A stretch of DNA of 45,196 bases from an uncultured Synechococcus sp. Lineage in GTDB: Bacteria > Cyanobacteriota > Cyanobacteriia > PCC-6307 > Cyanobiaceae. This document shows, in pieces, positions 12,197-24,697 of this stretch. The stretch spans positions 1 through 45,196 of the forward strand of contig CAJXPL010000019.1 in the NCBI GenBank assembly GCA_913057985.1, written 5' to 3'. The position numbers and the translations under genes are program-made. Within the stretch, counting starts at the first letter, position 1. Each line of letters starts with the position of its first letter. Under the pieces are notes generated by a model that was given only the letters and a program-made list of their open reading frames with translations, searched no databases and had not been told where the DNA came from.

Positions 12197-15100
12197 TTGA
12201 ATACTCCTGTTTTGACGCTTCAAGCATCCGTTTCCGGCAGCCTCTATTGGGGAGGGATGTCAGGTCAGTTGACCTTGATCAATTCCGGTGACACGTCTCT
12301 CACGGATTGGTCGTACACCTTTCGCACCACCCAGGCAGATGTGAAGGTGTGGTCGTCCACCTACGACGTTGTTGATCTGGGGGACGGCACCTATGAGGTG
12401 ACCGTTGGCCCTCCGAGTTGGGGGGCGTCCATTCCTGCCGGAGGCTCCTTGAGCCTGAGTTTCAACGCGGTCAGCGTGGATCTGCCCAACAGCGGAACAT
12501 TGACGGATGAGATGTTCTTTGCTGATTCAACTGGTGCAGATTTGAGCTCTGAACCGGAGCCTTCTCTCGAGCCGGAACCAGAGCCTGTTCTGGAGCCTCA
12601 ACCGGAGCCTGAGCCTGAGACCCAGCCTGAGGCTGAAGCACCGACGGCCGATGCACCAGCACGCGTTTTCGAGGTCGACGTCTATTCAGGGGAGGTCACC
12701 GACTTCCGCGCGGGCATCGATCGTCTGGATTTTGGCGACAAGTCGGTCCACAACTTGATTCTCGGCAAGACGGAAGAGGGCGACGTCACCTTCTTGAGCC
12801 CCTGGAATGACGCCCAGAAGATGACCCTGGTGGGGGTGACCTACGACCAGCTGGCCCTTGGGGACTACGGCGTCGTTGGCAATGAACACCTGCGTCAGGA
12901 CCTGGGTGGCGTTGTGTCGTGGGAGTTGGGCGTCGGCGAGAAGGATCCCAACACCGTTTACATCCGTTCGCACGAGTACGGGAAGGTCGAGACCATCAGC
13001 GACTTTGATCCGGCCACTGACAGGATCAGTTTTCTCTATTACGGCACCCGTGAGCGTCTTTCGGTGACGCAGGACGGTGCCGACTTGGTCATTTCGACCA
13101 AGCCCACCGGGCAGACCTTCATTTTCCAGAACATCAATCTGGATGACATTCCTGGGGCCAGCCTGGAATTCCACTTTGATCAGATCGTCGAAGACAACCT
13201 CGAGATCCCCTTTGGTCGCGCGGTGGAGTCGTTGACGCTCAAGGACCGCACTGCTCTTCTGACTCCGGCCGCTCCTGCGGGTGAGCAGACGGATGGTTAC
13301 CAGACCCAGTCCGGCGACACGGCCGTGAATGAGCAGCCTCCCCACGACAGCCATTCCATGGGCGACCACGCATCGATGGACATGGATCCGGACATGGAGA
13401 TGGCCCCCGAGACGGACAGCGATTCCGAGCCGCCCAGCGATCCGGAGCCGACCGCTGAGGTTGAATCCGCTGCTTCCGGTCTGGAGGTGTCCGCCACGAT
13501 CACCGGTGGTTGGTCGGGGACTTTCGCTGGAAACGTCACGGTCACGAACACCACCGGCGCGTCGGTCGGCACGGACTGGACGGTGAGCTTTGTCTCCGAT
13601 GCACCGTTGAAGAGCGTCAGCAACTTCGAGTTCACCAACACCCTGCGAGACGATGGCCGCTACACCGTCACCCTGAGCCCTAAGTCCTGGTCTGCCCCCC
13701 TGGCGGCGGGTTCTGCGCAGAGCTCTTACTACCAGGGCTCCGGAGACTTCTCGGATCCGAACCAGGTGTTTGATCTCGCTGCTACGAGCGCCGAGGTCCC
13801 TCAGCAAGAGTCCGAGGCTGAGTCGTCTGTGGTTGAGCAGCCTGACGCTGCTCCGCAACCGGACGCCAGTGACGCTGTGGAGCCCCCCGATGCTGAGGCC
13901 GCTGTTGTTGATGACAGCCCGGTCACAGACGACAGCCCAGACACGGGCGACATCTCAGTGACGGAGGGGGGCACGGTCACCATCGACTATGAACGCCCTG
14001 ACGGCACGACCGACAAGCGGGTGGTGACCTACTTCGAGGAGTGGGGCATCTACAGCCGTGACGTCAATCTGTCGGACGTCGATGGTCAGTCGATGACCCA
14101 CATGAACTACAGCTTCTTTGATGTGAAGGCGGATGGGTCGATCACCCTGTTCGATGAGTTCGCGGCCCTGCAGAAACGCTTCTCCCAGTCCGATCAGGTC
14201 AGCCGCACCTTCAGCTCCAGCGACTACGCCGCCATGGCTCCGGAGCTGCTCGACGTCTACGAAACCTCAGGGCGCTACACCGTCAGCCAAAACGGTGACG
14301 CCATCACGGTGACATCGGTACCCATCGGTTGGAACGGCGTTGGCACCAACGACGCCGGCAACTTTGCGCAGCTGCGCCGCTTCAAAGAGCTCAATCCTGA
14401 AGTCAACCTCGGTTTTGCCCTCGGTGGCTGGACGCTGTCCGATGAGTTCAGCACCGCCTACGCCACCCAGGAGGGTCGCGACAAGTTCGTCGGCGAGACC
14501 GTGCGCATTTTCGAGACCTACGACTTCTTCAATGTCGTCGATTTCGACTGGGAATATCCGGGCGGCGGCGGCAAGGCCGGTAATGCGGACTCCCCCAGTG
14601 ATGGTGCCAACTTTGAGTTGGTGCTGCGTGACCTGCGCACCGCCCTCGATGATCTATCGGTTCGAACCGGTCGTGACTTTGAGGTGTCGATCGCCACGGC
14701 CGGTGGCGAAGAGAAGCTGGCCAACCTCAACCTTGCAGGCATCGACCCCTACGTCGACTTCTACAACGTGATGACCTACGACTTCCACGGCGGTTGGGAG
14801 AACGTTACGGGCCATCAGGCCGCCATGACCGGTGACGCCAACAACTACGACGTCACCGGGGCTGTGGATGTGTTCGAGACGGCGGGGATCGAGCTCAGCA
14901 AGGTGGTGATGGGGGCCCCCGCGTACACCCGTGCCTGGGGGAACGTTGCTGATGGTGGAACCTTCGGTTATCAACAATTCGGCTCCGGCCGTGACGCCAC
15001 CGGTTCGTTTGAAGCCGGTGTCTACGACTACAAGGATTTGCTCGACGACGTCGTGACGGGGACGCGCAATCTCTACTGGGATGACGACAACAAGGCGGCC

Positions 15101-15373
15101 TTCCTCTACGACGGCGATGAGTGGAGCTCGATGGAAACCACCGCCACCATTGCCGGTAAGGCGGCCTATGTGGAAGAAAAGGGACTGGGGGGAATGATGT
15201 TCTGGGCCCTCAGCAACGATGCCGAAGGTGACGCCAGCCTGGTGGCAGCCGCCGATGATTTGCTGCGCCAGGGGGCGAGCTATGCGGAGGTGATCGAACG
15301 CGCCCCAGCCTTCGACGCCATCATTGGCGGCAACGGTGATTTCAGCCTGTCGGATTTCACTGGTCTGGTTTGA
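12197..15373 (+). CDS. modular GH18 chitinase-like protein with two CBM2-like domains
   Basis: A 1,058-residue multidomain protein predicted to bind and hydrolyse chitin outside the cell. Order: CBM2-like domain (about 1-110); Glu-Pro linker (about 117-150); a middle region (about 155-345) with DF..GID.LDFG and ISDFDPATDRISF segments typical of RTX-type secreted proteins; a His/Met/Asp-rich linker (about 378-410); second CBM2-like domain (about 429-535); acidic linker; GH18 domain (about 607-1030). The GH18 active site reads NVVDFDWEYPG with D782, D784 and the acid/base E786; the first Asp of DxxDxDxE is Asn (N779). MTYDFHGGW (M859 on) and GGMMFWALS are also typical. There is no Sec signal peptide, and the C-terminus (FSLSDFTGLV) fits type I secretion. 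A stop sits three codons upstream, so the start must be the TTG at 12197 or a later codon. Function on real chitin is inferred. Confidence 0.88.
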   Translation: MNTPVLTLQASVSGSLYWGGMSGQLTLINSGDTSLTDWSYTFRTTQADVKVWSSTYDVVDLGDGTYEVTVGPPSWGASIPAGGSLSLSFNAVSVDLPNSGTLTDEMFFADSTGADLSSEPEPSLEPEPEPVLEPQPEPEPETQPEAEAPTADAPARVFEVDVYSGEVTDFRAGIDRLDFGDKSVHNLILGKTEEGDVTFLSPWNDAQKMTLVGVTYDQLALGDYGVVGNEHLRQDLGGVVSWELGVGEKDPNTVYIRSHEYGKVETISDFDPATDRISFLYYGTRERLSVTQDGADLVISTKPTGQTFIFQNINLDDIPGASLEFHFDQIVEDNLEIPFGRAVESLTLKDRTALLTPAAPAGEQTDGYQTQSGDTAVNEQPPHDSHSMGDHASMDMDPDMEMAPETDSDSEPPSDPEPTAEVESAASGLEVSATITGGWSGTFAGNVTVTNTTGASVGTDWTVSFVSDAPLKSVSNFEFTNTLRDDGRYTVTLSPKSWSAPLAAGSAQSSYYQGSGDFSDPNQVFDLAATSAEVPQQESEAESSVVEQPDAAPQPDASDAVEPPDAEAAVVDDSPVTDDSPDTGDISVTEGGTVTIDYERPDGTTDKRVVTYFEEWGIYSRDVNLSDVDGQSMTHMNYSFFDVKADGSITLFDEFAALQKRFSQSDQVSRTFSSSDYAAMAPELLDVYETSGRYTVSQNGDAITVTSVPIGWNGVGTNDAGNFAQLRRFKELNPEVNLGFALGGWTLSDEFSTAYATQEGRDKFVGETVRIFETYDFFNVVDFDWEYPGGGGKAGNADSPSDGANFELVLRDLRTALDDLSVRTGRDFEVSIATAGGEEKLANLNLAGIDPYVDFYNVMTYDFHGGWENVTGHQAAMTGDANNYDVTGAVDVFETAGIELSKVVMGAPAYTRAWGNVADGGTFGYQQFGSGRDATGSFEAGVYDYKDLLDDVVTGTRNLYWDDDNKAAFLYDGDEWSSMETTATIAGKAAYVEEKGLGGMMFWALSNDAEGDASLVAAADDLLRQGASYAEVIERAPAFDAIIGGNGDFSLSDFTGLV

Positions 15374-18609: not shown

Positions 18610-19695
18610 ATGACGCCCTGGCCAGCCTGGTTGAGACTCGGTCTTCTGCTGCCGGTGCTGGGCTTAAACGCCTTTGTGCTGAAGCGTTTGCTGGTGCAGT
18701 TCGCCCCATTCCCCGGGCTGTTCCTCACCGCGGCCTTGATCGCCTTTTTGTTGGACCTGCCCTGCCGCTGGCTCGCGCAACGGGGTCTGCCTCGCCCTTG
18801 GGCGATCGTGAGTGTGGTGCTGGTGACCCTTGGGCTGCTGGTCTGGGCGGCTGTGGCCCTGGTGCCGCTTTTGATTGAACAGCTCAGTCAATTGATCAGT
18901 GCTTCGCCGTCCCTGCTCACGGCGGCAGAACAGTGGATCGATCGGGGTCAGCTTTGGGCTGTGGACCATGGCTTGCCCGCGGATTTTGCTGATCTCAGCA
19001 GCGATCTGGTGTCCCAGTTCAGCCGTCTGGCGACGCAGTTGAGTCAGCGGCTGTTGGGCCTGCTGGGGGCGACGGTGGGCACCACGATCAATGTGGTGAT
19101 CGTGGTGGTGCTCGCGGTGTTTCTGCTGCTTGGGGCAGATTCGATCGTCGACGGTCTGGCTCGTTGGCTGCCCGACCGCTGGCGGGGTCTGGTGCAAACG
19201 ACCCTTGAGCGCACCTTCCGCGGCTATTTCGCCGGCCAGGTGCTGCTGGCGCTGATCCTCAGTGCTGGCCAGCTTCTGGTCTTCACCGCCCTGAACATTC
19301 CCTACGGCGTCTTGTTCGCCGTGCTGATCGGCTTCACCACCTTGGTGCCCTACGCCAGTGCGGTGTCGATTGTCTCGGTGAGTGCGGTGCTGGCGGTTCA
19401 GGACCCCCGCACAGGCTTTGAGCTGCTTGCCGCGGCGATCGTGGTCGGTCAGATCGTGGACCAGGTGATCCAACCGCGGCTGATGGGAAGCATTGTTGGC
19501 TTGCAACCGGCCTGGCTGCTGATTGCCTTGCCGATCGGCGCCCGGGTGGGCGCCCTCTATGGCGTGGGGGGTCTGCTGGGACTGCTGTTGGCGGTGCCTG
19601 TGGCCAGTTGTGTCAAGACCCTGGCGGATGCCGCCAGGGCCGACGACGGTGAACTCAGGCCGCCGGAATCACCCCACGATCCTGGAGCGCTTTGA
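18610..19695 (+). CDS. AI-2E/PerM family transporter
   Basis: A 361-residue membrane protein of the AI-2 exporter (PerM, UPF0118) superfamily. Paired hydrophobic helices are present near the N-terminus, a soluble middle (residues about 95-150) is followed by more helices, and the C-terminal family pattern ending in [28 protein letters not shown] is clear. The cyanobacterial role of the family is not known; some members move small signals or act in ion homeostasis. The last 41 bases overlap the 3' end of convergent cysC. Confidence 0.87.
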
Positions 19696-20299
19696 TCACC
19701 AGTTCCACGGAGTCGGCCAGATCCTGCTTGCCTGTGTCGATCTTGAGCTCGGGAGTTTCGGGGGCTTCGTAGGGGCTGGAGATTCCGGTGAATTCCTTGA
19801 TCTGCCCCGCCCGTGCTTTGGCGTAAAGGCCTTTGGGGTCGCGGGATTCGCAGACCTCGAGATCAGCGGCGCAGAACACCTCGAGGAAGTCACCGTCCTC
19901 CACCAGCTCACGGGCCTTGTCCCGGTCTGCACGGAAGGGCGACACAAAAGCGGTCAGCACGATCACGCCCGCATCCAGGAACAGCTTGGCCACTTCACCG
20001 ATGCGGCGGATGTTCTCTTCACGGTCGGCATCGGAGAAGCCCAGGTCTTTGCAGAGGCCGTGGCGGATGTTGTCGCCATCCAGCACATAGGTGGCGAGCC
20101 CCCGCTCGAACAGGGCTGCGTTGACGGCATTGGCCAGGGTGCTCTTGCCGGAGCCGGAGAGTCCGGTGAACCAAAGAATGGCGCTGCGGTGCCCCCGCTG
20201 CTGCGAGCGCTCGTCGCGGCCCACGGAGGCCTCATGCCAGGCGATGTTGGTGGACGCACCTTTGTTGGTGAGTTCTCCGTAGGTCGAATTGGTAGTCAT
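19655..20299 (-). CDS. cysC: adenylylsulfate (APS) kinase
   Basis: Phosphorylates APS to PAPS, the sulfate donor for sulfotransferases and the substrate of PAPS reductase. The 214-residue protein has the P-loop GLSGSGKST (from residue 46), [26 protein letters not shown] and [12 protein letters not shown], and a C-terminal [12 protein letters not shown]. The base composition returns to GC-rich at its first codons. It is the last gene on the strand that carries three of the island's sulfotransferase-like genes just upstream, so PAPS supply is encoded next to likely users. Confidence 0.96.
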
Positions 20300-20518
20300 G
20301 TTTTGAAATTAGAGGTAGCTGGAATTAATACTATTTTTAACTACTCTACGGTATCAGAAGTGAGGTCCTTTGATTGGGGCAAGTTCTCATGAAAGAGAGC
20401 TGTATAACTTCAAGGTTGTCAGGAATCTGATATATTGAAGCTTCTGAATTTGTAATTTATTGTGCAGAAGAATTTCTTTCGCGCAAACTTCAAGATCCTC
20501 AAGTATTAATCAGTTAAA
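20300..20518. other. AT-rich intergenic stretch upstream of cysC
   Basis: No gene is visible. On the minus strand TAGTAT (plus 20327-20332) could be a -10 box for cysC about 30 bases before its ATG. The AT-rich composition marks the left end of the island. No tRNA or clear direct repeat was seen. Confidence 0.5.
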
Positions 20519-21271
20519 TTATCGTATAGAATTAATTGCTCTTTTATGTAACCAGACAGCAAGTTGAGATTTTCTTTCAATTTTTGAGATCATTTCTTTC
20601 GATAGAAAAGGATTAGAATTGCTAGCAATAATATTTCTTGAAAGTTTAGAGGAATTCTTTAATTCAGAATCCAAGGGAAATGCTTCCTTCCATGTTGGTC
20701 GTAGATGAAGAAAATCAAGCTTGCCGCTATCAGAAAGCTTGTGAAAATATAAATTCATGTGTTCGGTTGGAAGTAATACGGTTGGGAGATAGCGCTTAAA
20801 TCTCCTTTCGAAAAACTTTTCTTTGCGTTCCGAATGCAGTTTAATGGCCAGCTTGCAAAGGGTTTTTTTGTTTGGAACTAGTAGTCTTAGGATCCTGTAG
20901 CTGTATAAATCTATTTTTATATTCCCTGTTAAAAAAGTTCGTGGCTCTAAGACATAATTCAGAAAATTTGAGAAGCAGGAAACACTTTTTTCGCCATATA
21001 ATAGATCGATTTGTTCTTTTTTAAGGTGCTTTTTAGATTTCTTCCATACACCACCTCTTCGATCTAAGCCGTAAGACCAGAGAGAGAAGTAATAAGTAGA
21101 GGGGTCCCTAATGGTTAAGAGTGTTGGGAGCTTGAGATCTTTGTTAGAAGGAACAGAATGCTTCTTACCCATTAACTGAGAGCATTCAGTTATATTTGCG
21201 AGTTTATCTCTTAAAAAAGTACATCCAGTTTTCTGAAGATCTAAATACAACCAGGAATCGCTTTTTAGCAT
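20519..21271 (-). CDS. sulfotransferase-like protein (LDLQKTGCT loop)
   Basis: A 250-residue soluble, very basic protein. Near the N-terminus LDLQKTGCTFL (K14 to T18) fits the 5'-phosphosulfate-binding loop that follows the first strand of sulfotransferases. LTIRDPSTYYFSLWSYG (R55, S58) fits the 3'-phosphate-binding motif. The rest is Lys/Ser-rich and not conserved with anything I recognise. It is the last island gene before cysC, on the same strand. Likely a PAPS-dependent sulfotransferase acting on a cell-surface glycan or other metabolite; the acceptor cannot be told. Codon use is strongly A/T-biased. Confidence 0.68.
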   Translation of the reverse strand: MLKSDSWLYLDLQKTGCTFLRDKLANITECSQLMGKKHSVPSNKDLKLPTLLTIRDPSTYYFSLWSYGLDRRGGVWKKSKKHLKKEQIDLLYGEKSVSCFSNFLNYVLEPRTFLTGNIKIDLYSYRILRLLVPNKKTLCKLAIKLHSERKEKFFERRFKRYLPTVLLPTEHMNLYFHKLSDSGKLDFLHLRPTWKEAFPLDSELKNSSKLSRNIIASNSNPFLSKEMISKIERKSQLAVWLHKRAINSIR

Positions 21272-21357
21272 CGTTTTGGATTAAAGCTCTATTTTAGGAC
21301 AGAAAGTGATCTTTTTAATCACATGAATTTTTACTCCTTGTAGTCATGTGTTTTCTT

Positions 21358-22152
21358 TTATTTTCGACGGAGATTCTTTGCTCTTTGTTCTGGATTAATA
21401 AGATGAAATAATTCAGCGCATTCTTCATGGCAATGAGAGATGACAGTTTCTTCGTCGTGGGCGTATGAACTATCCTGCAGCATTTTCAAGTACTTCGTAT
21501 AAACTAGGTTGAAACTTTCCCATGCGGATCTGTCCCCTGACATATAACTCGCGCTGACAGGTACTATTTGGGAATAGTATTTCATGCCTGAATAGTAGTG
21601 TGAAATTTTTCCACGCTTGTCTTCTTGTTTGATAAAGTTGGCTCTTATTCTTTTCGGGTTAAATCTTGCTACTGATGCGTCGCACCAAGCGAAATGCTTG
21701 AATTCAGAATATTCTTCTCTTGAGGCTATGTCAGCAAGAAGAGGTACTTTACTCAGCCAAATTGATAATACTTTTTTGTAGCTATCGACGCTTTTGCCGT
21801 TATAGTCTCTGAAATAATGTTTTATCCCCTTCTCTTGTATAGTTCGATAATTATTCCAGCTAGATTTTGGTGATATGGCTAATTGCATCCTCTGACATGC
21901 CTTAACGTAATTATCGCTTACAAGTACTGCGGGAAGATTTTGTACTGGCATTGAAACTGTCTCAAGGCTAATATCTTGGCTTTTAGAAAACTCTCTAACT
22001 AATTCAAAAATATTTTTTTGATTACTCAAAAATAATAACTTCTCACCCTGAAGCATTTTTAAAGTTTTTTTGAGTGTCTGTAAATACAACTCTGGTGTTT
22101 TCTTGTTCCAGTCCTCAATGATCCACAAACCAGTGACATACAGTTTTGTCAT
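21358..22152 (-). CDS. possible HtrL/WlaTC-like glycosyltransferase
   Basis: A 264-residue soluble protein. It begins with a strand-like MTKLYVTGLWII, has the segment KHFAWCDASVARF near residue 145, and ends with DEETVISHCHEECAELFHLI. This layout recalls the HtrL/YibB (WlaTC-like) family, in which a W-D segment sits at the nucleotide-sugar site. The match is by eye only. It ends 86 bases before the sulfotransferase-like gene downstream and starts seven bases after the stop of the sulfotransferase-like gene upstream, so the three minus-strand genes look like an operon. Function is a guess: sugar transfer onto the polymer that the neighbours sulfate. Confidence 0.5.
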   Translation of the reverse strand: MTKLYVTGLWIIEDWNKKTPELYLQTLKKTLKMLQGEKLLFLSNQKNIFELVREFSKSQDISLETVSMPVQNLPAVLVSDNYVKACQRMQLAISPKSSWNNYRTIQEKGIKHYFRDYNGKSVDSYKKVLSIWLSKVPLLADIASREEYSEFKHFAWCDASVARFNPKRIRANFIKQEDKRGKISHYYSGMKYYSQIVPVSASYMSGDRSAWESFNLVYTKYLKMLQDSSYAHDEETVISHCHEECAELFHLINPEQRAKNLRRK

Positions 22153-22159
22153 TTTCTAA

Positions 22160-22792
22160 TTACGAATAGTTGATACGTACAAATGATTTTGTATCCGGCA
22201 AAGTAACCCCTTTCGGAGGCGCTGCTTTTCCAGTTAAGACTTTGGGGTATGTACTCTGTTTAAACGTATAGTCTCTTTTAAGAAAATCTTGCAAGGCATT
22301 ATAATTGATATTTTCGAGTGATAAAGTAAAAAAGTTCTTTCGCTTGTTAAAAAAAGTATTAACCCTTAAGTGATACTCATAAAATTCACTTCTCCATATA
22401 TCTCTAAGTTCACTTAAGCTGGAAATGCCCTTATGTTCAAGAGCAATTCTCGCATAATTTCCTTGTTTATGTAGCATTCTAGACTTGATCCAGCTCTCGC
22501 AGCTTCTTGTCGTCAAAATGTAATACGATTCGGGGTAGTTTTCAAAAATAGTTTCGAAGTATTCGTAGATGTAAATACATTTTTTATGATTTTCGACATC
22601 CTGAAATAGATCAATATTTTCCATGCCGGAATATGGAGCAATTTTTTGATCTATATTTTTCTTAATAAGCTTTGCAAATCTTACAGAGCCAACTGTATAA
22701 TTATTGCTTGTAAAGAGTCTTCCAAGAGAGGATGTTCCAGTCTTGTTAAAGCCTAATTGAATGACATGGGGTCTAGATCTCAAGGCTTGCAC
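22160..22792 (-). CDS. sulfotransferase-like protein (NKTGTSS loop)
   Basis: A 210-residue protein with GTG start at 22792. VIQLGFNKTGTSSLGRLF (residues 10-27) is a standard sulfotransferase phosphosulfate loop. YILTTRSCESWIKSRML (R96, S97) matches the 3'-phosphate-binding segment, and this pair is typical of the Sulfotransfer_4-type family of bacterial and algal proteins. The short size fits that family. It is the first gene of the minus-strand run in the island's left half and is divergent from the sulfotransferase-like gene at 22942. Acceptor unknown. Confidence 0.78.
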   Translation of the reverse strand: MQALRSRPHVIQLGFNKTGTSSLGRLFTSNNYTVGSVRFAKLIKKNIDQKIAPYSGMENIDLFQDVENHKKCIYIYEYFETIFENYPESYYILTTRSCESWIKSRMLHKQGNYARIALEHKGISSLSELRDIWRSEFYEYHLRVNTFFNKRKNFFTLSLENINYNALQDFLKRDYTFKQSTYPKVLTGKAAPPKGVTLPDTKSFVRINYS

Positions 22793-22941
22793 TCAATTCA
22801 CAGTTTTACTTATCCTACCGTCTTGTTTTTCATAACGCAATGCTATTGGTTTTCTTTAGGAAAGGGACTAGCTAATTCAAACGCTGAATTGCTATTGCAT
22901 ATATCAGATGTGTTAGTGTAGCTATAAAATCATGGACGGTT

Positions 22942-23625
22942 GTGGGTAAGTTCAACTCAGACGAAATAATGGTTGCTGGCCCTTTTAGAAGTTGTACCAA
23001 CTTGATGAAATATATGATTGATAAATATACTCTTTCGAAAGGCTTGTATAATAAATGGTTCTGGAAACATGGCTTTCCCCCAACCATGCCCAGCCGCAAA
23101 AAAATTATACCTTCTCGGATTCCCATAGTAGTTATGGTAATAGACCCATATATATGGCATTCATCTATGTACCAGTTCTGGCTCAGAAGAAGGCCGGAGC
23201 TTCTCGGCAATGGAGAAACTTTGCAGCAATTTATTCGGAAAAATATTTGTATTTATGACAATACTCGAATAAACCATAATCCCCAATATCTATTTGATAC
23301 GCCATCTGATTATTGGAATAAATTCTATTTTTCGTGGCTTCATTGGCCGGCAGTAAGTCGGCAAGTAGTTTTTGTCAAGTCCTCTGATTTATTGCAGCGA
23401 CCGTCATCTTTAATCGCGGAAATAGTATCAAAGTTTCGGTTAGAATTCAGGCATGATGATTCCGTTATACATTTGCCGAAAACCCGAAAAGGACCTGCTG
23501 TTAAGCCTCTTGAAGATTCTAGCGTCAAGAAACTAGACGATTTGGATGTTCGATTTATAAAAAGTCGAGTTAATCCCGATATCGAGCAAAAACTAGAAGA
23601 TGTCTGCTTAAAGCTGCCTTCATGA
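22942..23625 (+). CDS. sulfotransferase-like protein (FRSCTN loop)
   Basis: A 227-residue protein, the only plus-strand gene in the island. IMVAGPFRSCTNLMKYMI (residues 9-26) looks like the RSGTN-type phosphosulfate loop of sulfotransferases with Cys in place of Gly. IPIVVMVIDPYIWHSSMYQFW is a possible 3'-phosphate-binding segment, but with Asp-Pro where Arg-Asp-Pro is usual, so the usual Arg is missing. The start is a GTG; a stop at 22885 limits any extension. It faces the minus-strand gene at 23641 with 15 bases between stops. Could be active with altered PAPS binding or be degenerate. Confidence 0.55.
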   Translation: MGKFNSDEIMVAGPFRSCTNLMKYMIDKYTLSKGLYNKWFWKHGFPPTMPSRKKIIPSRIPIVVMVIDPYIWHSSMYQFWLRRRPELLGNGETLQQFIRKNICIYDNTRINHNPQYLFDTPSDYWNKFYFSWLHWPAVSRQVVFVKSSDLLQRPSSLIAEIVSKFRLEFRHDDSVIHLPKTRKGPAVKPLEDSSVKKLDDLDVRFIKSRVNPDIEQKLEDVCLKLPS

Positions 23626-23640
23626 TGGAGAGCCGCTTTT

Positions 23641-24321
23641 TCAGACGTTTATATCCTTTATTCTTAATATTAAATCAGGTATTGACGATACCTCCTCGGT
23701 TTTGAAGACATTTTCGAGTTGCTCAAAATAGTCAATTCTCTTTATGAATTCTGTGCTAGCATGGTTTAAATTGCTTGCTGCAAATTTGAATCTATCCTGA
23801 GAATCTGTCTTCTTTGTCGTGTTATTTGAAGATGAATTTAATTGTTTGAAATGTATTGATTTTCCAATAGTAGTAGAGAAATGTTTTTCAAGAATATCGA
23901 GTGATGAGATTGGTACAGCAAGATCAACTTCTGATTTAAAGTCTCTGTTGAGAAAAAAGCCAGTGTTTGTCCGTTTCATTTCATTTAGGCACCACTCTTC
24001 GAATGGGATGTCTCCTAAATATTTGTCTATGCGCTTGCTGGCAAGTAGCTTTTTCCTGCAACGATAATCGTACCAGCTAATCATTTTTGATATTGGATGC
24101 CTGCAAGTGCAAATTTTTTGATAACTGCTTGATTTGGGGTATTGTTTTCTTAGGAAAGGTCCCCAGCTTTTCTTGAATTTGTGGGGGCTAATATGCTTGC
24201 CTCCGATATTGACTGAATTCAGTGAAATCTCACAGTATTTTTTGATAGCATTCTCTATGCTTGTTGTAGCGCATTTTGGATTTGAAAAAAATACAAAATT
24301 GTATTTAAGAGAGACAAGCAT
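23641..24321 (-). CDS. sulfotransferase family 2-like protein (NPKCATTS loop)
   Basis: A 226-residue protein from the ATG at 24321, which has a good ribosome binding site (AGGAAG). A frame starting at 24384 would overlap SUI1 by 38 bases and is less likely. FVFFSNPKCATTSIENAI (residues 9-26) and CTCRHPISKMISWY (R74, S78) are the two PAPS-binding motifs of the carbohydrate sulfotransferase (Sulfotransfer_2) type, the family of chondroitin and heparan enzymes. That family mainly acts on sugars, so a glycan acceptor is likely. It follows SUI1 on the same strand with 25 bases between them. Confidence 0.78.
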   Translation of the reverse strand: MLVSLKYNFVFFSNPKCATTSIENAIKKYCEISLNSVNIGGKHISPHKFKKSWGPFLRKQYPKSSSYQKICTCRHPISKMISWYDYRCRKKLLASKRIDKYLGDIPFEEWCLNEMKRTNTGFFLNRDFKSEVDLAVPISSLDILEKHFSTTIGKSIHFKQLNSSSNNTTKKTDSQDRFKFAASNLNHASTEFIKRIDYFEQLENVFKTEEVSSIPDLILRIKDINV

Positions 24322-24330
24322 TGGTTGCGA

Positions 24331-24336
24331 CTTCCT
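24331..24336 (-). promoter_or_regulatory. ribosome binding site deciding the start at 24321
   Basis: On the minus strand AGGAAG ends nine bases before the ATG at 24321. It supports that start over the in-frame ATG at 24384, which lies inside the SUI1 coding sequence. Confidence 0.6.
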
Positions 24337-24346
24337 GGGGTGAATT

Positions 24347-24697
24347 TTAACCTCCCGAGCGTTTAGCTTTGTACCCATTATCAATCAAAATTTTGATTGC
24401 TGTATCGGTGTGATCCCCTTGCAGTTCGATCACGCCGTCCTTGGCGGTGCCGCCACTGCCGATGCAAGTTTTGAGCTTCTTCAGCAGTGCTTTGAAGCCC
24501 GTAGCATCCAGCTCCAGCCCACGGATCACCGTCACTGTTTTGCCACCTTTTCCACCTCGGGTTGGCTGCACCCGCACCATTTGCTGCGCCTTCGCCGTGG
24601 GCTCCGCCGTTGGTCCGCTCGGTCGCTGCAGGCTCTCGGCACTGCTGAATTCCTGCCAGCCTCCCTTCGGCATAAACCCATCGCAACAGGGTTGCAT
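24347..24697 (-). CDS. SUI1/eIF1-like translation initiation factor
   Basis: A 116-residue protein of the SUI1 (eIF1, YciH) family. After a variable N-terminus the core reads VRVQPTRGGKGGKTVTVIRGLEL, LLKKLKTCIGSGGTAKDGVIELQGDH and ends GYKAKRSGG, as in bacterial members. Its role in bacteria is unclear but is thought to bear on start-site selection or ribosome function. The first part is GC-rich, but the last 15 to 20 codons (24347 to about 24405) switch to A/T-rich codons, which suggests the island boundary lies inside the gene. It is divergent from trpB. Confidence 0.88.
   Translation of the reverse strand: MQPCCDGFMPKGGWQEFSSAESLQRPSGPTAEPTAKAQQMVRVQPTRGGKGGKTVTVIRGLELDATGFKALLKKLKTCIGSGGTAKDGVIELQGDHTDTAIKILIDNGYKAKRSGG

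Follow-up and report, generated by a model that had tools for sequence, protein, structure and literature searches.

An AT-rich insert between cysC and SUI1 of an uncultured Synechococcus is probably a transferable cassette for glycan sulfation and glycosylation

A sharply AT-rich insert lies between cysC, the gene of adenosine 5'-phosphosulfate (APS) kinase, and a SUI1-family gene in an uncultured Synechococcus sp. (assembly GCA_913057985.1). The window analysed here is the whole stretch of 45,196 nucleotides (nt) from contig CAJXPL010000019.1. The five genes of the insert, designated as open reading frames (ORFs) ORF1 to ORF5 (Table 1), comprise a glycosyltransferase-like one and four of sulfotransferase type. 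With a probability of roughly 0.6, it is a transferable cassette for the sulfation and glycosylation of a glycan, derived from a Prochlorococcus-like source of low GC (guanine plus cytosine) content. The insert is absent from the corresponding site of the ten congeners drawn, four of its genes keep their order in a Prochlorococcus genome, and relatives of ORF2 and ORF4 stand together in another phylum.

Results

The first-pass annotation, which was made from the sequence alone, had described a sharply AT-rich insert in GC-rich DNA. The composition agrees with this description, since the GC content is 0.359 over 20300-24405 and 0.637 in the remaining window. GC values below 0.50 were found in 41 of 447 segments of 500 nt, and all of them fall within about 20100-24600. 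The minimum elsewhere is 0.508. The limits given for the AT-rich region, 20300-24346, are those of the gap between the two flanking genes, but the AT-richness extends past 24346 into the end of SUI1. The terminal 72 nt of SUI1 (stop included) have 42% GC versus 61% for its other 279 nt. In an alignment with five congeners, the edges of the insert fall within SUI1 and, on the opposite side, at approximately the opening codons of cysC.

The site was compared in a draw of 201 genomes of the family, own genome included. Among the matches listed, cysC was matched in 186 and SUI1 in 184 of them. The two genes adjoin in all ten congeners drawn. The gap is 31 bp in eight; the match of the remaining two (G089 and G147) begins inside cysC, so that their gap size is inexact. 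Therefore, the insert is most simply explained as a gain in this genome, in line with the earlier suggestion that its genes were acquired. In other genera, fifteen enlarged cysC-SUI1 intervals (L005-L019, about 0.8-10.7 kb) were fetched, and they hold various GC-rich genes. A recurring hot spot for sulfotransferases at this site was rejected on present evidence: sixteen queries (the five ORFs plus 11 further sulfotransferases) gave no match at E ≤ 0.01 in the fifteen intervals, whose ORF lists favour antisense frames in GC-rich DNA, and cysC and SUI1 themselves were matched in 15 of 15 loci.

The uncultured Prochlorococcus AG-918-F13 (L103) carries ORF1-ORF2-ORF3-ORF4 in the same order and on the same strands, with identities of 32, 60, 69, and 59%, respectively. 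The stretch has 29% GC. In the place of ORF5 there is another gene, which is Sulfotransfer_3-like below the cut-off (23.8 versus 27 bits). Beyond it lie genes for an epimerase-family protein and for a mannose-1-phosphate guanylyltransferase/isomerase. ORF2 relatives were detected in two of 175 genomes of the Prochlorococcus family, one of which is AG-918-F13. The differences between the two cassettes at codon positions 1, 2, and 3 are 0.30, 0.21, and 0.56 for ORF2, 0.22, 0.17, and 0.57 for ORF3, 0.34, 0.22, and 0.56 for ORF4, and 0.52, 0.41, and 0.62 for ORF1. From this pattern, ORF2 to ORF4 look constrained at the protein level, as purifying selection predicts. Their synonymous sites are saturated, and thus no rate is given. 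Comparison of the ORF3-ORF4 intergenic region with its Prochlorococcus counterpart gave no convincing conserved element or promoter. In a simple scan, promoter-like sites numbered 17 versus 11.4 ± 3.6 in shuffles, and terminator-like sites 2 versus 3.4 ± 1.6.

A reading of the genes as broken was rejected, because all five ORFs, which lie within 20519-24384, are open and unbroken. As for related strains, where the first-pass annotation had raised the chance of broken copies, the four cassette genes are open in AG-918-F13; in G086, a genome of the family draw, ORF5 has a weak match (E 9.1e-4) whose frame contains five stops.

A pairing of ORF2 and ORF4 relatives was found in Rhodobacterales. 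The search of 72,556 plasmid records with ORF4 produced one strong match, in Aliiroseovarius sp. M344 (35.5% identity, E 3e-39), and two others with E values of 0.2 and 6. The sole ORF2 match at E ≤ 1 (33.5%, E 1e-34) adjoins this ORF4 match on the opposite strand. In genome contigs, ORF4 alone detected nothing, and an alignment of ORF4 with two relatives detected four loci. In two of the four, as on the plasmid, an ORF2 relative directly adjoins the ORF4 relative; in the third, that of Prochlorococcus, ORF3 separates the two, and the fourth locus is that of Aureimonas psammosilenae. The adjacent genes are 128 bp apart in Actibacterium and overlap by 4 bp in Tropicimonas. The other island genes had no match in the Actibacterium, Tropicimonas, or Aliiroseovarius loci. 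In the family of the Actibacterium genome, ORF2 was found in two of 169 genomes, one being that genome itself. Within the 201 genomes of the Synechococcus family, ORF4 occurs only in its own genome and ORF2 in its own and three others.

A phage origin was also tried and rejected, since a search of 50,697 phage records with the five proteins gave no match at E ≤ 0.01. At E ≤ 10, ORF4 gave only partial matches with E values of 5-10. Viral contigs gave no match with single proteins or with alignments A4 and A3, which is weak evidence because short peptide patterns were used.

The insert might instead be an ordinary island patch, where surface-glycan genes of mixed origin gathered at a permissive site, with no function as a cassette and with cysC as a neighbour by chance. 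The enlarged intervals of other genera are free of sulfotransferase matches (15 loci, 16 queries) and indicate that the site accepts other genes. Elsewhere in the family, sulfotransferase genes occur singly in the midst of other genes, and ORF5 is missing from the Prochlorococcus cassette. However, this explanation is unlikely, for the order and strands of four genes are kept in two genomes at different chromosomal sites, and ORF2 and ORF4 occur together in another phylum.

The route of arrival was considered from the edges. Homologous recombination through the flanking core genes, with a low-GC relative that already carried the cassette at this site as the donor and with no mobile element involved, is a real possibility, although somewhat short of even odds, and it is compatible with a transferable cassette. 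No transfer RNA gene is present in the whole window, and no integrase match was obtained among the five ORFs that the family scan covered. At the end of SUI1, 23 codons are rich in AT and differ from those of congeners. The closest of 44 family tails (from 45 loci) belongs to a 36% GC genome with 14 of 23 identical residues, and the ten congeners share 10-11 of 23. Exchange of islands by this route was proposed for aquatic prokaryotes in PMC4033161. Nevertheless, 14 of 23 is a weak likeness, and the second-best tail by score comes from a 64% GC genome. The SUI1 tail thus differs in sequence from that of congeners, and the tail comparison does not decide between the sources. The start of cysC is like that of congeners and unlike that of low-GC genomes, and the cassette of AG-918-F13 stands away from its empty SUI1-cysC site. 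The insert is not flanked by near-exact repeats, though cysC and the DNA beyond SUI1 each hold one arm of an imperfect inverted pair of 30 nt (77%).

Table 1. Positions of the insert, its genes, and the flanking genes in the window.
Feature	Position	Strand	Remarks
AT-rich insert	20300..24405		4,047 bp between cysC and SUI1 (20300-24346); continues into the 3' end of SUI1
cysC, APS kinase (makes PAPS)	19655..20299	-	PF01583, E 2.2e-71; core gene downstream of ORF1, same strand
ORF1, sulfotransferase-like	20519..21271	-	5' loop LQKTGCTF; 3' motif RDPSTYYFS
ORF2, glycosyltransferase-like, HtrL_YibB-like	21358..22152	-	PF09612 below cut-off
ORF3, Sulfotransfer_4 family	22160..22792	-	PF17784; 7 bp upstream of ORF2; loop NKTGTSS
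ORF3-ORF4 divergent intergenic region	22793..22941		149 bp; Prochlorococcus counterpart 116 bp
ORF4, Sulfotransfer_3-like	22942..23625	+	5' loop FRSCTN; Ile in place of the basic residue of the 3' motif
ORF5, Sulfotransfer_2-like	23641..24384	-	Loop NPKCATTS; not in the Prochlorococcus cassette
SUI1-family gene	24347..24697	-	PF01253, E 3.5e-16; last 23 codons AT-rich, unlike congeners

Sulfotransferases that use 3'-phosphoadenosine 5'-phosphosulfate (PAPS) are recognised by two signatures, a 5' phosphosulfate loop with a lysine and a 3'-phosphate motif R-x7-S. The four loops listed by the first-pass annotation were located in ORF1 (KTGCT), ORF3 (NKTGTSS), ORF4 (FRSCTN), and ORF5 (NPKCATTS). 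The four proteins match differing families or relatives and not one another, so its view that a simple tandem duplication is unlikely is upheld. It mentions neither that the insert abuts cysC nor that the 3'-phosphate motif of ORF4 is without its basic residue. Its count of four sulfotransferase-like genes is confirmed, although by family scores only in part: ORF3 exceeds a Pfam cut-off, but ORF1 and ORF4 have no match of their own and ORF5 stays below, and the rest is supplied by relatives, motifs, and, for ORF4, the predicted fold. The insert ORFs had no match in NCBIfam and one insignificant match, that of ORF3, in PHROGs. Single-sequence searches of PDB with ORF1, ORF3, ORF4, and ORF5 gave nothing useful.

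ORF3 is the sole ORF of the insert that passes a Pfam cut-off (PF17784, 29.8 versus 22.8 bits). All six members of its alignment A6 match this family at E ≤ 0.1, and N16, K17, G19, T20, S22, R96, and S104 are invariant in the six rows. The A6 profile matches nine solved sulfotransferase sequences with E values from 4e-5 to 7e-4. For ORF1, no family was matched at E ≤ 1 in Pfam, NCBIfam, or PHROGs; K14, T15, and T18 of the loop and R55, P57, and S63 of the 3' motif are invariant in the five rows of A5. Its relative L026 reaches 18.2 bits for PF03567, below the cut-off of 22, and its relative L030 matches no sulfotransferase family. ORF5 scores 18.3 bits for the same family, Sulfotransfer_2 (cut-off 22, E 0.0027), and K37, R95, P97, and S103 are invariant in the five rows of A8. 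Its relatives in A8 start at Met22. The true start may be 24321; read from the first start codon, ORF5 overlaps SUI1. As judged from these residues, ORF1, ORF3, and ORF5 retain both PAPS-binding signatures.

Within the family draw, ORF1 was matched in its own genome and five others, all of one genus (g24). ORF3 was matched in 23 of 201 genomes including its own, with 25-33% identity and at other places, and ORF5 in its own and two others, weakly. In the wider phylum, ORF5 was found in its own genome and one congener among 244 genomes. In plasmids, ORF1 has no match at E ≤ 1. ORF5 has partial relatives (33-47% of the query) on Rhodobacterales plasmids; of its six plasmid matches, two are unannotated and one is a methylmalonyl-CoA mutase. 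As a side observation, the ORF1-like sulfotransferase genes of the five g24 genomes (L026-L030) are flanked by unrelated core-like genes in the four loci read. Also, a Sulfotransfer_4-like gene is located directly behind a gene that, judged by eye, resembles GMP synthase in L036 and L038 (congeners) and in L095 (contig C14 of the own genome, 7178-9387 of the locus). L036 matches the Sulfotransfer_4 family on its own, and both L036 and L038 match it as members of A6.

ORF4 itself has no sulfotransferase family match, and it stays below the cut-off of Sulfotransfer_3. The identities of its relatives are 59, 44, 38, 36, 21, and 19%, and only one of those scanned (L104) passes PF13469 (27.4 versus 27 bits). 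Its nearest approach to significance by sequence profile is heparan sulfate 3-O-sulfotransferase 3A1 (E 0.012). A check of the fold was made for ORF4 alone. The AlphaFold model was built from five sequences and has a mean predicted local distance difference test score (pLDDT) of 76.4 and a predicted TM-score (pTM) of 0.79; a single-sequence model (pLDDT 33) was discarded. In a Foldseek search against PDB, the best match was 6xkg, heparan sulfate 3-O-sulfotransferase 3 (E 6e-4), which was the only one below 0.001. All fifty matches listed are sulfotransferases, with query TM-scores of 0.33-0.59. In VIA-align, SULT1C3 gave a Z value of 12.3 with a root mean square deviation of 3.4 over 178 aligned residues, and several heparan enzymes gave Z values of 11-11.7, where values within 1 count as tied. 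Hence the predicted model of ORF4 has a sulfotransferase fold, as the first-pass annotation had expected, and the fold does not imply activity.

Beside the ORF4 family, distant ORF4-like genes adjoin cysC in two Aureimonas genomes, one of them on a plasmid (L099, 6007-7589; L106, 8001-9314). cysC is right behind the ORF4 relative in both Aureimonas psammosilenae (21% identity) and Aureimonas sp. AU20 (18.9%, E 0.2). These pairs are possibly two-gene units of APS kinase and sulfotransferase.

ORF2, which the first-pass annotation called glycosyltransferase-like, has a likeness to HtrL_YibB, but the score for PF09612 (17.1 bits) is under the cut-off of 24.1. The Prochlorococcus relative reaches 22.7 bits, and two of the eight members of alignment A4 match HtrL_YibB at E ≤ 0.1, the best at 8.7e-5. 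HtrL_YibB proteins are called lipooligosaccharide (LOS)-associated in PMC4172580, and cyanobacterial sulfotransferase genes are found mostly in exopolysaccharide (EPS) clusters according to PMC8205485. The ORF5 relatives on the Palleronia and Leisingera plasmids have a UDP-galactopyranose mutase gene adjacent and glycosyltransferase genes near, and the relative in Paroceanicella has a glycosyltransferase gene and a Stf0 sulfotransferase gene near. A surface glycan is the likely acceptor, given the sugar-nucleotide and glycosyltransferase neighbours of relatives, the LOS-associated HtrL_YibB proteins, and the sulfotransferases of EPS clusters. For the decoration of a surface or secreted glycan, as first proposed, the neighbours of relatives of several ORFs therefore speak in favour; the further claim that several positions are sulfated is supported only in part, and ORF4 may not be a working sulfotransferase.

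An acceptor other than a surface glycan, that is, a secreted natural product, a lipid, or a peptide, was also weighed. PAPS sulfotransferases have many acceptors, and SULT, tyrosylprotein, glycopeptide, and heparan enzymes are all found among the matches of ORF4 in PDB. A sulfated peptide has a precedent in RaxX of Xanthomonas with its sulfated tyrosine, as described in PMC6637879 and, for RaxST, PMC4216712. Nevertheless, such a target is very improbable. The neighbours in L103, L091, L100, and L101 include sugar-nucleotide, glycosyltransferase, or further sulfotransferase genes, the profile match of ORF4 nearest to significance is a heparan sulfate enzyme, and none of the five ORFs was recognisable as a gene for a peptide or polyketide.

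Discussion

For the understanding of the transferable cassette as a whole, the following mechanism is proposed. The conserved part of the cassette comprises ORF3, ORF2, and ORF1, which share a strand, and the divergently oriented ORF4. A cell-surface glycan, which may be exopolysaccharide, capsule, or lipopolysaccharide (LPS), probably receives a sugar through ORF2. Its hydroxyls probably receive sulfate from PAPS through ORF1, ORF3, and ORF5, the last being a local addition. ORF4, a frequent partner of ORF2, would either sulfate the product of ORF2 through an altered cofactor site or serve as a non-catalytic partner. The cassette would have landed between SUI1 and cysC. Since ORF3, ORF2, ORF1, and cysC are on the same strand, co-transcription may tie the expression of the sulfotransferases to the supply of PAPS. 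No terminator-like site was found on this strand from ORF3 to cysC in a simple scan, which finds few anywhere, and cysC is no longer shortly linked to SUI1 here.

The PAPS-synthesis genes of the nod and rax systems are presumably dedicated copies, whereas here the sulfotransferases adjoin a cysC that belongs to the family core. The likeness to raxST-raxPQ (PMC4216712) and to nodH-nodPQ is that a sulfotransferase is supplied by a PAPS-making ATP sulfurylase and APS kinase. Clusters joining PAPS synthesis and sulfotransferases are named a hallmark of sulfated polysaccharide synthesis in PMC11641403. Vibrio KMM 8419 and Cobetia marina KMM 1449 have clusters for sulfated capsules in which genes for PAPS synthesis likewise share a region with sulfotransferase and glycosyltransferase genes; these clusters comprise about 80 and about 70 genes with export, and the Vibrio cluster holds second copies of cysC, cysN, and cysD (PMC11641403, PMC11766843). 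In contrast, the insert has five genes and stands beside the only cysC of the genome among the matches listed. Another cyanobacterial locus, the synechan (xss) cluster of Synechocystis PCC 6803, is similar in that its glycosyltransferases are accompanied by sulfotransferases from distinct subfamilies. It lies on a megaplasmid and comprises Wzx/Wzy, regulators, eight glycosyltransferases, and two sulfotransferases (PMC8205485), whereas in the insert one gene is glycosyltransferase-like and four are of sulfotransferase type. The cassette of AG-918-F13 resembles the insert in the order and strands of four genes and differs in its genomic site and in the gene at the place of ORF5. No paper on this cassette appeared among the literature matches listed. 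The insert is an arrangement of known parts that is new: a four-gene core kept in one other genome, with ORF5 added and placed beside cysC.

Several points weigh against the cassette as proposed here. At the 3'-phosphate position, ORF4 has Ile, where Val is found in Prochlorococcus (L103), Lys in L098, L104, and L105, and Arg in L099 and L106. Because Ile replaces Lys/Arg, catalysis by ORF4 is in doubt, and judged from its residues it is perhaps not a working sulfotransferase; the Ser of the motif is kept. ORF2 is below every family cut-off in Pfam, NCBIfam, and PHROGs, and neither its profile nor that of ORF1 matches a credible PDB chain. ORF1 is the least constrained gene, with an identity of only 32-34% between the two cassettes. 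The pairing of ORF2 and ORF4 is not general. In genus g34, the 18 kb fetched around each of three ORF2 relatives hold no relative of ORF4, although Sulfotransfer_3 genes over the cut-off are present in one of these stretches (L091), and the relative L112 from the family of Actibacterium has no ORF4 within 1.5 kb. The contig scans use short peptide patterns and miss relatives, so that absence in them is weak evidence. No export or polymerase gene was found among the five ORFs, to which the scan for Wzx/Wzy or ABC export genes was limited. Finally, cysC is core in the family and is present regardless of the insert. In AG-918-F13, the SUI1-cysC site is intact without an insert and the cassette stands elsewhere; therefore, the coupling to cysC may be a by-product of the landing place or an accident.

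A bolder extension of the cassette reading would take ORF2 and ORF4 as a minimal module of sugar plus sulfate that moves alone between cyanobacteria and Rhodobacterales. ORF4 of picocyanobacteria would then be under selection without the standard 3'-phosphate contact, acting as a scaffold or using the cofactor in an altered way, and the operon would mean that a core cysC is run by an acquired cassette. We regard this combination as rather doubtful. The ORF2-ORF4 pair across phyla offers a small system for matching a sugar with sulfation.

In marine Synechococcus, most genes on islands lack an assigned function. As far as literature searches show, the genes with which picocyanobacteria sulfate the cell surface are little charted. 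A compact insert at a site that is empty in ten congeners allows a clean plus/minus comparison of coat sulfate and of susceptibility to phages or grazers.

Elsewhere in the window, a large ORF lies at 12197-15373 on the forward strand. Its C-terminal half, judged by eye, is presumably like a chitinase of glycoside hydrolase family 18, with segments that we take to be like cellulose-binding modules.

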